DNA from: Paludibacter sp.
GTDB lineage: Bacteria > Bacteroidota > Bacteroidia > Bacteroidales > Paludibacteraceae
Length of the DNA: 59,100 nucleotides
Assembly (NCBI GenBank): GCA_017882285.1
Contig: JADGPS010000009.1
Coordinates: 1 to 59,100, forward strand
Direction of reading: 5' to 3'
Part shown: piece after piece, positions 6,941 through 35,771 of the stretch
Layout: the number at the start of each line of letters is the position of its first letter
Numbering within the stretch: the first letter of the stretch is position 1
Position numbers and translations under genes: made by a program
The notes under the pieces: generated by a model
The model's input: only the letters and a program-made list of their open reading frames with translations
The model's database searches: none
What the model was told of the DNA's origin: nothing

Positions 6941-6955
6941 ATAAAATTGTCTCGG

Positions 6956-7411
6956 GTCTAAAGTCAAAGGTCAAAAGTCTAAGACTTTGTTGCTGAATTA
7001 TTATTAGATTTGTTTAAATATTCAATTAATTTCTGAATTGATGATGAAATTATTATTGTTTTATTTCTAAGAATTATGCCAGTATCTACTGAACAATATT
7101 GTAAATCTTCACAAAGAAATAACATACTTCTTACTTCACCACAACTTGCTTTTGCAATTTTCAAATAACGAATAAATAATGAATCCGAACCAGATTCCGA
7201 ACCTTCGGCAATATTATTCATAATTGAAACAGCAGCTCTTTGTATTTGGTCTTTGAATCCGTAATCTTTACAAATTGCAGTCATTTTATAAATGTCATTC
7301 ACTAATAAACGAGCATCTTGCCATACTCTTAATTCTTCAAAGTTTCTCATATTCTTTAAAAGTAAATTCAAAGGTCTAAAGACTATGGACTTTTGACCTT
7401 TGACTTTAGAC
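6956..7411 (-). mobile_element. S23/IVP element A: four-helix-bundle gene enclosed by a 24-bp perfect inverted repeat
   Basis: Bases 6956-6979 (GTCTAAAGTCAAAGG and on) are the exact reverse complement of 7388-7411. The 456-bp interval contains one gene, for an S23-type four-helix-bundle protein, and its stop codon lies at the edge of the left repeat. A further partial copy at 7370-7383 can pair with 7402-7415, so the repeat family is locally iterated. The element fills nearly all of the gltA-icd intergenic space. The layout matches that of intervening sequences in some bacterial 23S rRNA genes (long stem, S23 ORF in the loop), but here it lies in a protein-coding operon. Calling it mobile is inference. 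Confidence 0.6.
6979..7350 (-). CDS. Four-helix-bundle protein (S23 / 23S rRNA intervening-sequence protein family)
   Basis: A 123-residue protein. The ATG at 7350 is preferred over one seven codons upstream because MRNFEELRVWQDARLL is the conserved family start. Family hallmarks are FEELRVWQ, then QIQRAAVSIMNNIAEGSESGS, then a third helix LIRYLKIAKASCGEVRSML-like and a final helix. Known relatives include ORFs inside 23S rRNA intervening sequences and the bAvd accessory protein of diversity-generating retroelements, which forms a positively charged pentameric barrel. No reverse transcriptase or variable repeat is nearby, so a DGR role is unlikely. The molecular function is unknown; nucleic-acid binding is inferred from relatives. 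A paralogue lies at 31987-32376. Confidence 0.85.
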   Translation of the reverse strand: MRNFEELRVWQDARLLVNDIYKMTAICKDYGFKDQIQRAAVSIMNNIAEGSESGSDSLFIRYLKIAKASCGEVRSMLFLCEDLQYCSVDTGIILRNKTIIISSSIQKLIEYLNKSNNNSATKS

Positions 7412-7428
7412 CTTTGACAATCATTTTT

Positions 7429-31441: not shown

Positions 31442-31912
31442 ATGAATTATAACAAGAAATTTATGCGCAAAGCAATTGCTTTGTCTTTAGAAAATATAAA
31501 AAATGGTGGTGGTCCTTTTGGAGCAGTTGTTGTAAAAGATGGAAAAATTATTTCAACCGGAGTAAATCGGGTAACTTCGAATATCGATCCAACTGCCCAT
31601 GCCGAAGTGAATGCGATTCGCAAAGCTTCCAGAAAGTTGCGAACATTTGATTTGTCGGGTTGTGAAATTTATACTTCTTGCGAACCTTGTCCTATGTGTT
31701 TGGGAGCAATTTACTGGGCACATATCGATAAAATGTATTTCGGAAATACTAAATCAGATGCTAAAAACATTGGTTTCGACGATTCATTTATTTACGACGA
31801 AATTGCTTTGAAACCTGAGAACAGACAGGTGAAAACTATTCAACTGCTTCCAGACGAAGCTATTAAAGCTTTTGAAGCATGGAAAAATGTCGAGGATAAA
31901 GTCAGATATTAG
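31442..31912 (+). CDS. guaD: Guanine deaminase / nucleoside deaminase
   Basis: A 156-residue zinc enzyme of the cytidine-deaminase fold. Zn ligands are H53 in TAHAEVNAIRKA, with catalytic E55, and C83/C86 in TSCEPCPMCLGAIYW. The tail GFDDSFIYDEI and the very end AWKNVEDKVRY closely parallel Bacillus subtilis GuaD (same length, same terminal aromatic that reaches into the partner active site). This favours guanine deamination to xanthine over tRNA adenosine deamination (TadA). The stop codon TAG begins at 31910, and the inverted repeat of S23 element B begins inside that codon, so the insertion point is immediately at the gene end. Confidence 0.85.
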   Translation: MNYNKKFMRKAIALSLENIKNGGGPFGAVVVKDGKIISTGVNRVTSNIDPTAHAEVNAIRKASRKLRTFDLSGCEIYTSCEPCPMCLGAIYWAHIDKMYFGNTKSDAKNIGFDDSFIYDEIALKPENRQVKTIQLLPDEAIKAFEAWKNVEDKVRY

Positions 31913-32442
31913 TTGATTGGTTGATTAGTTAATTAGCCAATATCGGTAGTTTTGTTGTAAATTTGAGATTTTAAAAACAAATACAAATGGCAAATAACTT
32001 TGAATCATTGGATGTTTGGAAAGAGTGTCGCATATTTAGAAAACAAATTTCCAGTGTAGTTAAAACATTTCCGAATGAAGAAAAATACAGATTAACTGAC
32101 CAATTAATAAGGGCAAGTAGGTCTGTCACAGCAAATATTGCAGAAGGTCACGGACGTTACCATTTTCAGGAAAATAGTCAATTCTGTCGACAAGCACGTG
32201 GATCATTGACTGAAACACTCGACCATTTGCTATGTGCTTTAGATGAGAAATATATAGATGAAATCCAATTAAATGAATTCAGAGAACAATATGAAAATTG
32301 CATTAAATTATTGAATGGTTATATTGTTTTTTTGCAAAAACAAAAAGATACCTACAATACTAAATCGACCAAATAACAAAATAACCTATCAACCAAATAA
32401 CCAATTAACTAATTAACCAATTAACTAATTAACCAATCAACT
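31911..32442 (+). mobile_element. S23/IVP element B: four-helix-bundle gene within an inverted repeat
   Basis: The left end, AGTTGATTGGTTGATTAGTT at 31911-31930 plus AATTA, is the reverse complement of 32418-32442 with two mismatches in 25, one of which is a G-U pair in RNA. The right end also has tandem 16-bp copies of AATTAACTAATTAACC (about 32403-32434). The only gene inside is an S23 family protein. Architecture and size (532 bp) match element A, but the repeat sequence is completely different. It lies exactly between the guaD stop and the beginning of mfd coding sequence. Confidence 0.6.
31987..32376 (+). CDS. Four-helix-bundle protein (S23 / intervening-sequence protein family)
   Basis: A 129-residue protein with FESLDVWKECRIFRKQI, then QLIRASRSVTANIAEGHGRYHF, then FCRQARGSLTETLDHLLCAL and a final helix, the canonical S23/bAvd-like bundle. 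It is closer to the family consensus (RSVTANIAEGHGRY) than its paralogue at 6979-7350; the two share little beyond the core motif, so they are not a recent duplication. It is the sole gene of the inverted-repeat element B. Nucleic-acid binding is plausible by relation to the DGR accessory protein, but no retroelement is present. Confidence 0.87.
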   Translation: MANNFESLDVWKECRIFRKQISSVVKTFPNEEKYRLTDQLIRASRSVTANIAEGHGRYHFQENSQFCRQARGSLTETLDHLLCALDEKYIDEIQLNEFREQYENCIKLLNGYIVFLQKQKDTYNTKSTK

Positions 32443-32480
32443 TAGCAGATTTTCAACAACTTTACGCTCATCATCCTCAA

Positions 32481-35400
32481 GTGAATGCGCTTGTAAAATG
32501 GGCTTCTTCACTCGAACCAAATCTAAAAATTTCCGGTTTGAGCGGTTCTTCATCTGCGTTGACAATTGCTTCGCTTTTCAAAGCTAATCTACATACTCAT
32601 ATCATCGTCCGGGATGATGCTGACGACGCAGCTTATCTCTACAATGATTTGAAGCAAATTCTTTCTACGGAGGAAGTATTTTTCTTTCCATCCTCTTTCA
32701 AAAAAGCCATTAAATTATCGCAACTGGATGCTGCGAACGATATTTTGCGTACCGAAGTGTTAAACCGGTTGGCAAATACAACAGTTCCTTGTATAGTGGT
32801 TACTTATCCCGAATCGTTAATGCAAAAAGTAGTTTCTGCCGGCAGCATGCAAAGCCGAATGTTGCGAATGCATGTCGGCGAAAGTCTGGGGATTGATTTT
32901 GTAGTGGAAATGCTTACCGAATATGGTTTCGAACGGGTTGATTTTGTGTATGAACCGGGTCAGTTTTCTGTGCGTGGTAGCATTGTAGATATATTTTCGT
33001 ATGCTAATGAATTGCCCTATCGATGCGATTTTTTTGGTGACGAAGTGGATACTATCCGTGTTTTTGATATTGAAACACAACTTTCGCAAGAAAAGAAAGC
33101 TGAAATTATTATTATACCTGATTTACAACGTGATATTACTTCGCCACACGTTTCTTTTTTTGAATTTATTCCGACAAATAGTTGGTTTAGCTTTGCAAAT
33201 GTATCTTTTGTACGTGAACGTATCAATCAACTTTATAATGAGGCACTTGTAAAAGCGAACGAAGTAGAACACAAAACACCCCATCTAAACAAGACGCAAA
33301 TTACCGGTGATGAGTTTATAGATCAGGTTCAATCTTTCCGAAAAATGGAATGGGGCGAAAAAGCTTATTTTCAACATAAAACCACCATTCAATTCAATAC
33401 TTCGCCCCAACCCATTTTTCATAAAAATTTTGACTTGGTGGCAAATAACCTGAAACACAAACTGGACGAAGGTTATAAAGTGTATATTCTCAGCGATAGC
33501 GTCAAACAAACCGACCGTATTGCAGCTATTTTTGCCGATCGTGGTGATGATATTGCTTTTCAACCGATAAAAAATACCTTGCATGAAGGCTTTATCGATC
33601 ATGATTTATCCTTATTGTGTTATACCGACCACCAGATTTTCGACCGTTTCCATAAATATCAACTTAAAACAGATAAAACACGTTTGGGCAAAGTAGTGAT
33701 GACGCTCAAAGAGTTGAATCAGTTCCAGATTGGTGATTATATGGTGCATGTGGATCATGGGGTTGGTACTTTTGGGGGATTGATACGCACCAATGTGAAT
33801 GGCAAAATGCAGGAAATGGTGAAACTCGTTTACAAAGACGATGACATTATTTTCGTCAGCATTCATGCCTTGCATCGCATTTCGAAATACAAAGGAAAAG
33901 AAGGTGAAGCGCCACGCATTAATAAATTGGGTTCAGGTGCGTGGGAACGATTGAAAGAACGAACCAAATCCAAAGTAAAAGACATTGCCCGTGAATTAAT
34001 TAAACTTTATGCAAAACGAAAAGCGGAGCATGGTTTTCAGTATTCTCCCGACAGTTATTTGCAACATGAACTGGAAGCATCGTTTATTTATGAAGATACG
34101 CCCGATCAAGTTAAATCGACTGCCGATGTGAAAAAAGATATGGAATCGACTTTGCCTATGGATCGTTTGGTATGTGGCGATGTGGGTTTTGGAAAAACCG
34201 AAATTGCCATTCGGGCTGCTTTTAAAGCCGTTACCGACAGCAAACAAGTGGCCGTGCTTGTTCCTACAACCGTTTTGGCTTTGCAGCATTACAACACGTT
34301 TAAAGACCGTTTAAAAGATTTTCCGTGTACGGTTGAATACCTGAGTCGCGCACGCTCAGCAAAACAAACTAAAGAAGTTCTTGATCGTCTCGAAAAAGGT
34401 AATGTTGATATTGTTATTGGAACGCATAAATTGGTTGGTAAAAGTGTGAAATTTAAAGATTTGGGTTTGCTGATTATTGACGAAGAACAAAAATTTGGAG
34501 TTACGGTAAAGGAAAAACTCAAGGAAATGAAAATAAACGTGGATACGCTTACCATGACAGCCACGCCAATTCCACGTACGTTGCAGTTTTCGTTGATGGG
34601 AGCGCGCGATTTGTCCATTATTAATACGCCACCACCAAATCGTTATCCTGTTCAGACAGAAATTCATTTGTTTGACGAGGATGTGATTCGCGAAGCTATT
34701 CAATTGGAAATGAACCGGAATGGTCAGATTTTCTTTATCAATAACCGGATTCAAAGCATTTATGCTATGGAGGCAATGATAAAACGATTGGTCCCCGGTT
34801 GTCGGGTTGCAGTAGGTCATGGTCAGATGCCTGCTGATAAACTGGAAGAAATCATTATTGATTTTATTGATTACGAGTATGATGTGCTGGTTGCAACCAC
34901 CATAATTGAATCGGGAATTGATATACCGAATGTAAATACGATTATTATTAATAGCTCACATAATTTTGGATTAAGCGATTTGCATCAGTTGCGGGGCAGG
35001 GTAGGACGAAGCAACCGCAAAGCGTTCTGTTATTTGTTAGCTCCCGAAATGAGTTTACTGACGCCTGAAGCTCGCCGGCGATTGCAAGCCATCGAAACTT
35101 TTGCCGAATTGGGGAGTGGATTTAATATTGCCATGCAGGATTTGGATATTCGTGGCGCCGGAAACATGCTGGGAGCGGAGCAGAGCGGTTTTATTGCCGA
35201 CTTGGGCTATGAAACCTATCAAAAGATTCTGAACGAAGCTGTCTATGAATTAAAAGACGAAGAATTTGCTGAGTTATATGCCGACGAACGTGCTGAAAAC
35301 GCGTCATCTACTTCATTTGTAAACGATTGCCAGATTGATTCTGATTTGGAAGTACTTTTCTCCTATGAATACATTGAAAATGTGTCTGAACGTATTAGTT

Positions 35401-35771
35401 TGTATCGCGAGCTTGATAATATTGATAATGAAACAGAAATACTGGAATTTGAAAAACGATTGGAAGACCGTTTTGGAAAAATTCCTGCCGAAGGAATGAG
35501 TTTAATTCTGGTAGTTCGTTTACGATGGTTAGCTATGCGCTATGGAATTGAAAAATTAGTATTGAAAAACGAACAAATGACGGCTTTTCTTGTTTCTAAC
35601 CCGCAATCACCTTATTATCAATCTGAGGCTTTTGGCCGTTTATTGCAATATATGACATCCCATCCACGGCAATGTCAGTTACGTGAAAAAAATCATCGTC
35701 GTTCGGTGGTGTTTTCGGATGTAAAAACGGTGGAAAAAGCGTGGGAAATACTGACCAGCATCAAGCATTGA
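32481..35771 (+). CDS. mfd: Transcription-repair coupling factor Mfd, start codon disturbed
   Basis: A 1096-residue DNA translocase that removes stalled RNA polymerase and recruits the UvrABC repair system. The UvrB-like N-terminal region runs to about 400. The polymerase-interacting domain follows (GDYMVHVDHGVGTF near 418), then the helicase motor with Walker A GDVGFGKTE near 565, DEEQ near 667, RGRVGRSNRKAF and the C-terminal TRCF domain. Annotation starts at GTG 32481, the first usable start codon. However, family-like coding sequence continues upstream in frame (LADFQQLYAHHPQ, 32442-32480) until a TAA at 32430, with no ATG, GTG or TTG in it. The original start appears to have been lost at the edge of S23 element B. 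Confidence 0.93.
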   Translation: MNALVKWASSLEPNLKISGLSGSSSALTIASLFKANLHTHIIVRDDADDAAYLYNDLKQILSTEEVFFFPSSFKKAIKLSQLDAANDILRTEVLNRLANTTVPCIVVTYPESLMQKVVSAGSMQSRMLRMHVGESLGIDFVVEMLTEYGFERVDFVYEPGQFSVRGSIVDIFSYANELPYRCDFFGDEVDTIRVFDIETQLSQEKKAEIIIIPDLQRDITSPHVSFFEFIPTNSWFSFANVSFVRERINQLYNEALVKANEVEHKTPHLNKTQITGDEFIDQVQSFRKMEWGEKAYFQHKTTIQFNTSPQPIFHKNFDLVANNLKHKLDEGYKVYILSDSVKQTDRIAAIFADRGDDIAFQPIKNTLHEGFIDHDLSLLCYTDHQIFDRFHKYQLKTDKTRLGKVVMTLKELNQFQIGDYMVHVDHGVGTFGGLIRTNVNGKMQEMVKLVYKDDDIIFVSIHALHRISKYKGKEGEAPRINKLGSGAWERLKERTKSKVKDIARELIKLYAKRKAEHGFQYSPDSYLQHELEASFIYEDTPDQVKSTADVKKDMESTLPMDRLVCGDVGFGKTEIAIRAAFKAVTDSKQVAVLVPTTVLALQHYNTFKDRLKDFPCTVEYLSRARSAKQTKEVLDRLEKGNVDIVIGTHKLVGKSVKFKDLGLLIIDEEQKFGVTVKEKLKEMKINVDTLTMTATPIPRTLQFSLMGARDLSIINTPPPNRYPVQTEIHLFDEDVIREAIQLEMNRNGQIFFINNRIQSIYAMEAMIKRLVPGCRVAVGHGQMPADKLEEIIIDFIDYEYDVLVATTIIESGIDIPNVNTIIINSSHNFGLSDLHQLRGRVGRSNRKAFCYLLAPEMSLLTPEARRRLQAIETFAELGSGFNIAMQDLDIRGAGNMLGAEQSGFIADLGYETYQKILNEAVYELKDEEFAELYADERAENASSTSFVNDCQIDSDLEVLFSYEYIENVSERISLYRELDNIDNETEILEFEKRLEDRFGKIPAEGMSLILVVRLRWLAMRYGIEKLVLKNEQMTAFLVSNPQSPYYQSEAFGRLLQYMTSHPRQCQLREKNHRRSVVFSDVKTVEKAWEILTSIKH

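Follow-up and report, generated by a model that had tools for sequence, protein, structure and literature searches.

Why should an intact S23 gene stand between two protein genes, framed by an inverted repeat? The S23/IVP family is known from rRNA intervening sequences (IVSs) and its function is unknown, as stated in the accessible part of PMC4990558. In the window, the 59,100-nt stretch of Paludibacter sp. DNA analysed here, such a gene lies between a deaminase gene and mfd (Table 1). A first-pass annotation had described a 25-bp inverted repeat (23 of 25 matching), internally iterated at its right end, around an S23 gene between guaD and mfd. At the locus, the repeat, the intact S23 gene and its position between two genes were confirmed, as was the iteration, which runs up to 32444 with a period of 8. 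The assignment of mfd held (TIGR00580), while guaD is that annotation's own name for a gene whose best Pfam match is dCMP_cyt_deam_1.

Table 1 Positions in the window of the two S23 elements and of the genes next to the element studied
Feature	Positions	Strand	Assignment
Upstream gene, cytidine-deaminase family	31442–31912	+	best Pfam match dCMP_cyt_deam_1
Left arm, iterated GTTGATTG-type 8-mer (S23-sense strand)	31911–31941	+	
S23 / 23S_rRNA_IVP / four-helix-bundle protein, 129 aa, intact	31987–32376	+	Pfam 23S_rRNA_IVP E=1.2e-32; TIGR02436 E=1.3e-29
Right array, iterated AACCAATT-type 8-mer	32383–32444	+	period 8
Downstream gene mfd	32436–35771	+	TIGR00580 E=2.1e-289
Second element, arm, AAAGTC-type heptamer	about 6949–6979	-	
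Second element, S23 gene	6979–7350	-	
Second element, other arm	7374–7421	-	

The stop codon of the deaminase gene (TAG) shares bases with the start of the left arm, whose pairing partner within the right array is 32412–32442. The 25-bp arms (31911–31935 and 32418–32442) match at 23 of 25 positions, with two shifted registers scoring equally, and the longer arms (31911–31941 and 32412–32442) at 27 of 31. This arm score was equalled in 2 of 1,000 shuffles of the low-complexity locus; taken singly, the locus is only moderately significant. Folding the element as RNA, as the first-pass annotation had suggested, placed the arms in a 27-bp stem (MFE -113 kcal/mol, z -4.04), a stability that none of 100 shuffles matched. 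At the right end, the mfd codon 32436–32438 lies inside the last repeat unit and aligns with the TTG or ATG start of ten relatives (most relatives); it reads ATC in the window, G019 and G061, and ATT in G015 and G018. The true start of mfd in the window is uncertain: translation may begin at a non-canonical codon or further downstream, where the first GTG stands at 32481.

The S23 gene is the sole ORF of at least 80 aa between the arms. Like a 23S rRNA IVS, the element has terminal inverted repeats that can form a closing stem, but it is placed between two protein genes and not in 23S rRNA. Its arms consist of tandem degenerate units in intergenic DNA, as do STRR-type arrays of ~7-nt units, with a period of 8 of its own. 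Among ORFs of at least 80 aa within the element, there was neither a Y1 HUH transposase gene, as in REP/RAYT or IS200/IS605 systems, nor a reverse transcriptase, as in diversity-generating retroelements. No curated RNA family was found at the site, the Rfam matches above gathering score in the window being two tRNAs and Bacteroidales-1.

Owing to the moderate significance of the single locus, the case is carried by the class-wide result. We searched 60 genomes of the genus and order, including that of the window, and found S23 in 50. From these, 118 S23 domains were examined, 114 of them with enough flank for arm scoring. Inverted arms scored at least 14 at 112 of the 114 loci, compared with 27% of mispaired controls, and at least 20 at 82 loci, compared with 5%. 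The better arm was clearly periodic (≥0.6) in 77 of the 114 elements, with a period of 7 in 54, 8 in 12, 9 in 9 and another value in 2. Purifying selection acts on the S23 genes themselves: among 63 pairs, the 37 whose dS was finite have a median dN/dS of 0.071 and none exceeds 0.20 (these pairs are non-independent and have high dS). A stop codon was present inside 9 of the 118 domains. Many elements were vertically inherited at one site, giving 15 same-site groups.

The second element proposed in the window is also real, and its word differs from that of the element at 31911–32444. The count of two elements in 25 kb was nevertheless too low for the genome and its relatives: the window's genome has five S23 genes, two with an in-frame stop, and the searched relatives have up to 15. 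All five are enclosed by inverted arms, each with its own iterated word. The idea of an element that is inserted into operons of protein genes, has a defined layout and recurs with different words is supported.

The association was examined from the side of the repeats in 859 kb of sequence, comprising 800 kb of the one-contig genome G016, in ranges picked with most of its S23 positions already known, and the window. With a crude ORF caller, an arm score of at least 18 was reached by 6 of the 7 S23 genes and by 21 of 657 ORFs of other kinds. The top scorers among the latter include a RAYT-like gene and Y1 transposases, which have palindromes of their own (assigned by eye, no library check). 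The scan sequence holds 121 iterated arrays, compared with 13 after shuffling. Of the 82 that are intergenic, 30 have an inverted partner within 900 bp. Eleven arrays have that partner more than 250 bp away; all of them border one of 7 S23 genes, and no ORF of another kind lies inside such a pair. The 250-bp cut-off was chosen after the list was seen, the next gene-less pair lying at 249 bp. A further 19 arrays form gene-less pairs at up to 249 bp, and 52 have no partner. Genes of the GxxExxY family (TIGR04256), which we take to be nuclease-like, also lie between inverted arms (for example G016:C1:50664-51063; L380–L406), many of which consist, by eye, of iterated words of ~9–10 nt. From 30 fetched GxxExxY loci, 24 were tried and 22 were usable; arm scores reached at least 16 in 16 of them (mispaired 11%) and at least 20 in 13 (2.4%).

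The deaminase–mfd junction was then compared across the genus, with words assigned by eye at the sister loci. The deaminase gene is present in 23 of 48 genus genomes (the window's included) at 24 loci, 16 of which also hold mfd. Among these 16, the window alone has an intact S23. G019 carries the same element with the same arms and a broken S23 (80% DNA identity), and G061 a deletion remnant, again with the same arms (82% DNA identity). The junction in G022 is compact, with overlapping stop and start codons. Gene-less hairpins of the window's word type occupy the gap in G016 and G005; in G021 (L058), window-type arms surround an unrelated nested hairpin built from GCAAAGACGC-type words. G007 and G015 hold related arrays that are short; in G032 and G035 a different gene lies in the gap, and the remaining five loci have other spacers. 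The arms can therefore outlive the S23 gene.

Presence and absence of elements were also seen on cyanobacterial plasmids. In Nostoc, pC052_D carries a GGAGTCA-type S23 element at one operon junction, and pNsp_c a different one at the following junction of that operon, where the word is of GGGAAAA type. The first element is absent from four of five other plasmid copies, p057_A having a small extra ORF there, and the second from all five copies compared. At a third junction, GGAGTCA-type repeats are present without a gene: pC052_B has them as a hairpin, and pC052_A and p057_H as a lone array. In Picosynechococcus PCC 7003, an element splits cas10 from cmr3; PCC 7002 lacks it, and its cas10 end also differs. 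In pC052_D and PCC 7003, the following start codon adjoins the right end directly; in pNsp_c, ~40 nt of other sequence intervene. S23 elements in cyanobacterial plasmid CRISPR operons include L217 at cas10–cmr3 (type III-B) and L222 and L225 at cas6–cas4, L225 also with cas1d of type I-D.

The first-pass annotation had held that the repeat coevolves with the gene structurally, not by sequence. This part did not hold, as word similarity tracks S23 identity. A tblastn search with the window S23 returned 17 plasmid records, 16 of them cyanobacterial. Arm scores reached at least 18 at 13 of the 14 plasmid loci fetched, L227 being the locus without clear arms; mispaired means were 10–14, with maxima up to 29 because some loci share words. 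The plasmid heptamers include AGGGTGT, GGAGTCA and TAGGGAG. A genome scan with one plasmid S23 protein gave 445 loci, of which the best 80 (64–99% identical) form a cross-phylum set spanning at least ten phylum-level groups by record title; mis-binned metagenome contigs could inflate this phylum count, but not the linkage of word and S23. In this set, 16 of 79 loci score below 16; since the loci share a word, mispaired controls also score high (58% at ≥16), and we therefore used a word test instead. The tandem heptamer AG[GAT]A[N][TCA]C occurs in the left arm at 68 of 79 loci, in the right arm at 69 and in both at 62, compared with 1 and 5 of 79 on the wrong strand and 33 starts within 211 kb of strand in far flanks. 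The 79 loci form 55 flank-homology clusters, and the first member has the heptamer in both arms in 43. The word is thus not arbitrary: one S23 subfamily keeps the same heptamer across these groups.

Across 224 elements, arm similarity correlates with S23 identity (Mantel r 0.524, 0 of 500 permutations). It climbs only above 50–60% identity: arm-similar pairs make up 0.3–0.5% below 50%, 25% at 60–70%, 40% at 70–80% and 77% above 80%. Removal of 428 flank-sharing pairs left r at 0.507 and shares of 3% at 50–60%, 25% at 60–70%, 40% at 70–80% and 66% above 80%; with pairs inside the cross-phylum set also removed, the same bins gave 3%, 18%, 52% and 44% (n=16). Below 60% identity, the word is mostly not retained: none of 30 relatives of L030 match the strict pattern. 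Relatives of the window S23 in other families (49–63% identity) match the strict window word in 5 of 29 cases; in 16 of these 29 the better arm repeats every 8 nt, and many have related GTT/ATT words by eye. A reversed-pattern control was useless, the word being its own reverse. In these sequence comparisons, the repeat word follows the S23 subfamily, which suggests a mobile unit whose gene and repeat are matched. Independent histories of gene and repeats, which the first-pass annotation had named as evidence against its view, were therefore not found overall; repeats without the gene do occur, both at the deaminase–mfd site in sister genomes and as arrays in genomes with no detected cognate S23.

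Both arms of one element change together, as had been proposed. The left–right arm score is 26.7 within an element and 13.0 across orthologues at 50–60% S23 identity, 25.8 and 17.8 at 60–70%, and 24.6 and 24.5 above 90%. Of 129 pairs, 94 score higher within the element than across orthologues, as do 12 of the 15 site groups. The word thus drifts between orthologues while the left and right arms of one element stay similar, which indicates concerted evolution of the arms. Only the left-versus-right comparison across orthologues was used, since the whole-region comparison is dominated by flanking coding homology (within-element higher in 4 of 129 pairs); an arm-restricted same-site comparison favours the within-element score because the arms had been selected by it. 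In 53 of 60 groups, the left arm has the G-rich strand (AGT 8.9 compared with ACT 1.0).

We consider it probable, with ample room for doubt, that the locus holds a mobile, operon-riding element, in which one S23 gene lies between inverted arrays of a word that its S23 subfamily would recognise; binding and movement are the inferred parts. The element would ride in the sense direction between consecutive operon genes and, showing no apparent promoter, be expressed by the host operon. S23 made from host mRNA would bind its repeated word, the target most likely being DNA, as such or in the form of a single-stranded hairpin. The paired arms may stay similar through slippage and template switching, and host replication or repair enzymes would cut and join, completing movement. 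Host enzymes are invoked because S23 is the only sizeable ORF of the element; we know of no catalytic site in S23. Several observations speak against this reading: many elements are vertically inherited, the word is mostly not retained below 60% S23 identity, many dispersed arrays have no detected cognate S23 in the same genome, and the sense bias could stem purely from selection.

Among 73 site representatives from the genus and order, 59 were classifiable, with S23 sense in 57 tandem gene pairs, antisense in one, and one convergent. In the cross-phylum set (best 80 of 445 loci), 73 were classifiable: 60 sense and 2 antisense in tandem pairs, and 11 divergent or convergent. Combined, S23 is sense in 117 tandem pairs and antisense in 3. 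Tandem pairs make up 77% of adjacent ORF pairs in G016 (456 of 593), where gene-less arrays in tandem pairs are strand-neutral (18 sense, 22 antisense). The sense rule therefore belongs to the S23 gene, fitting expression by the host operon. The Bacteroidota -7 motif, TAnnTTTG, shows no enrichment ahead of S23 (5 of 71, compared with a mean of 6.7 after shuffling); the window has one TAAATTTG upstream of S23.

The orientation could also be read at the RNA level, as an intervening sequence whose arms pair in the polycistronic mRNA and are cut by RNase III to release the S23 segment, the sense rule arising because only a transcribed stem can be removed. The 117:3 ratio and the 27-bp stem with its z of -4.04 agree with this, and the Coxiella IVS has an S23 ORF and a 28-bp terminal stem cut by RNase III (accessible part of PMC4990558). 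We nevertheless hold it to be unlikely. Arm mismatches show no preference for G.U (257 G.U-type and 266 A.C-type; 26 groups up and 25 down of 60), and selection on an RNA stem was rejected as the main cause on this ground. Either strand of a stem would pair, so pairing alone does not explain the sense bias of S23, and lone arrays are unable to form such a stem. The absence of a G.U excess and the strand-neutrality of the G016 gene-less arrays both point to DNA rather than RNA, and we favour action at the DNA level.

Arrays might instead spread alone, by slippage, template switching or an unknown factor, with S23 as a host-useful passenger that survives in operon hairpins. The dispersed arrays lend this some weight. 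The 800 kb of G016 hold 56 gene-less arrays of 7–9-nt words, most without a match to resident S23 arms; 10 of 56 match the resident S23 set, compared with a mean of 2.45 (maximum 7) in 40 random sets, and the mean array match of 0.435 lies inside the random-set range (mean 0.360, maximum 0.483). G035, a genome 68% complete, has 88 matches of one word, AGTARAC, and a single detected S23, of another word. The AGTARAC matches predicted for G034 are present (21), those for G027 are absent, and the word is also frequent in G012 (41), G018 (19) and G022 (17). All four genomes with S23 arms of AGTTACR (G016, G022, G021 and G017) have matches to it, as do 13 others. Three words were matched in 17, 26 and 14 of 48 genus genomes, beyond what the (incomplete) S23 set explains. 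The match between dispersed arrays and the resident S23 genes is thus only partial. G016:C1 holds one TAACTGA/CAGTGAA-type array cluster of at least 0.5 kb twice, in opposite orientation (~193536–194077 and 1438185–1438726), TAACTGA being the word described in Beggiatoaceae (accessible part of PMC4679880). Purifying selection on S23 and its vertical inheritance would suit a useful passenger as well. The linkage of word and S23 subfamily across phyla argues against this account, as does the observation that beyond 250 bp, in the 859 kb scanned, iterated inverted arrays enclose S23 alone; we think it improbable.

Chance or composition in AT-rich, repeat-rich intergenic DNA has a negligible probability as the class-wide cause, even with 2 of 1,000 shuffles reaching the single-locus score and 27% of mispaired flanks a score of 14, being rejected by the arm statistics (112 of 114 loci; 6 of 7 S23 genes compared with 21 of 657 other ORFs), by the same layout with strand-specific words in unrelated phyla, and by the existence of sites without the element.

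Returning to the mobile, operon-riding element, we tentatively extend it: S23 proteins may drive short iterated repeats, each subfamily recognising its own 7–9-nt word and propagating it across phyla as lone arrays, hairpins and S23 elements. The rRNA IVS would then be the same class at an unusual landing site, and GxxExxY genes may do the same with 9–10-nt words. The mobile-element reading would give the S23/IVP family a candidate substrate, its own repeat word, and would give the short heptameric repeats a candidate protein for their spread. If this is right, a class of mobile elements with no recognisable recombinase resides in operons of many phyla.

How do these elements compare with known systems? 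REP/RAYT systems (REPtrons), in which a gene is paired with its dispersed palindromic repeats, are alike by analogy, but S23 is not a Y1 transposase and the words of S23 elements are iterated 7–9-mers. Avd of diversity-generating retroelements is a related four-helix-bundle protein, whereas the S23 element is without a reverse transcriptase. One solved relative was found by sequence, 2gsc (XCC0516); S23p of Xanthomonas campestris is a homopentamer of four-helix bundles (accessible part of PMC4990558). The 23S rRNA IVSs of Coxiella, Leptospira and others share an S23 ORF in terminal inverted repeats, a length of ~0.4–0.5 kb and a place in a transcription unit, and the Coxiella IVS has tandem GACAGAT heptamers upstream of its ORF (same source). 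They differ in sitting in 23S rRNA; the elements described here lie between operon protein genes, have arms of iterated words matched to the S23 subfamily, and also exist as gene-less forms and lone arrays.

The arms also resemble known heptamer arrays: those of cyanobacteria, known as STRRs, TAACTGA in Beggiatoaceae (PMC4679880), and GGGAATC and GGGGA(C/T)T in Xanthomonas and Nostoc (PMC4692102). In the accessible parts of these sources, such arrays are intergenic and patchy across phyla, the Xanthomonas ones often in inverted pairs, and neither 'S23' nor 'four helix' is mentioned. In none of our 224 elements, a set with no known Xanthomonas or Beggiatoaceae, did TAACTGA or GGGAATC stand in exact tandem beside S23; GGGGAYT did so in one. 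No paper linking S23/IVP to such repeats was found in the open literature, subscription papers and preprints lying outside the search. For the Beggiatoaceae repeats, the accessible part of MacGregor 2015 (PMC4679880) sees no evident mechanism of spread and considers, among other options, that a repeat-binding protein could be the mobile element.
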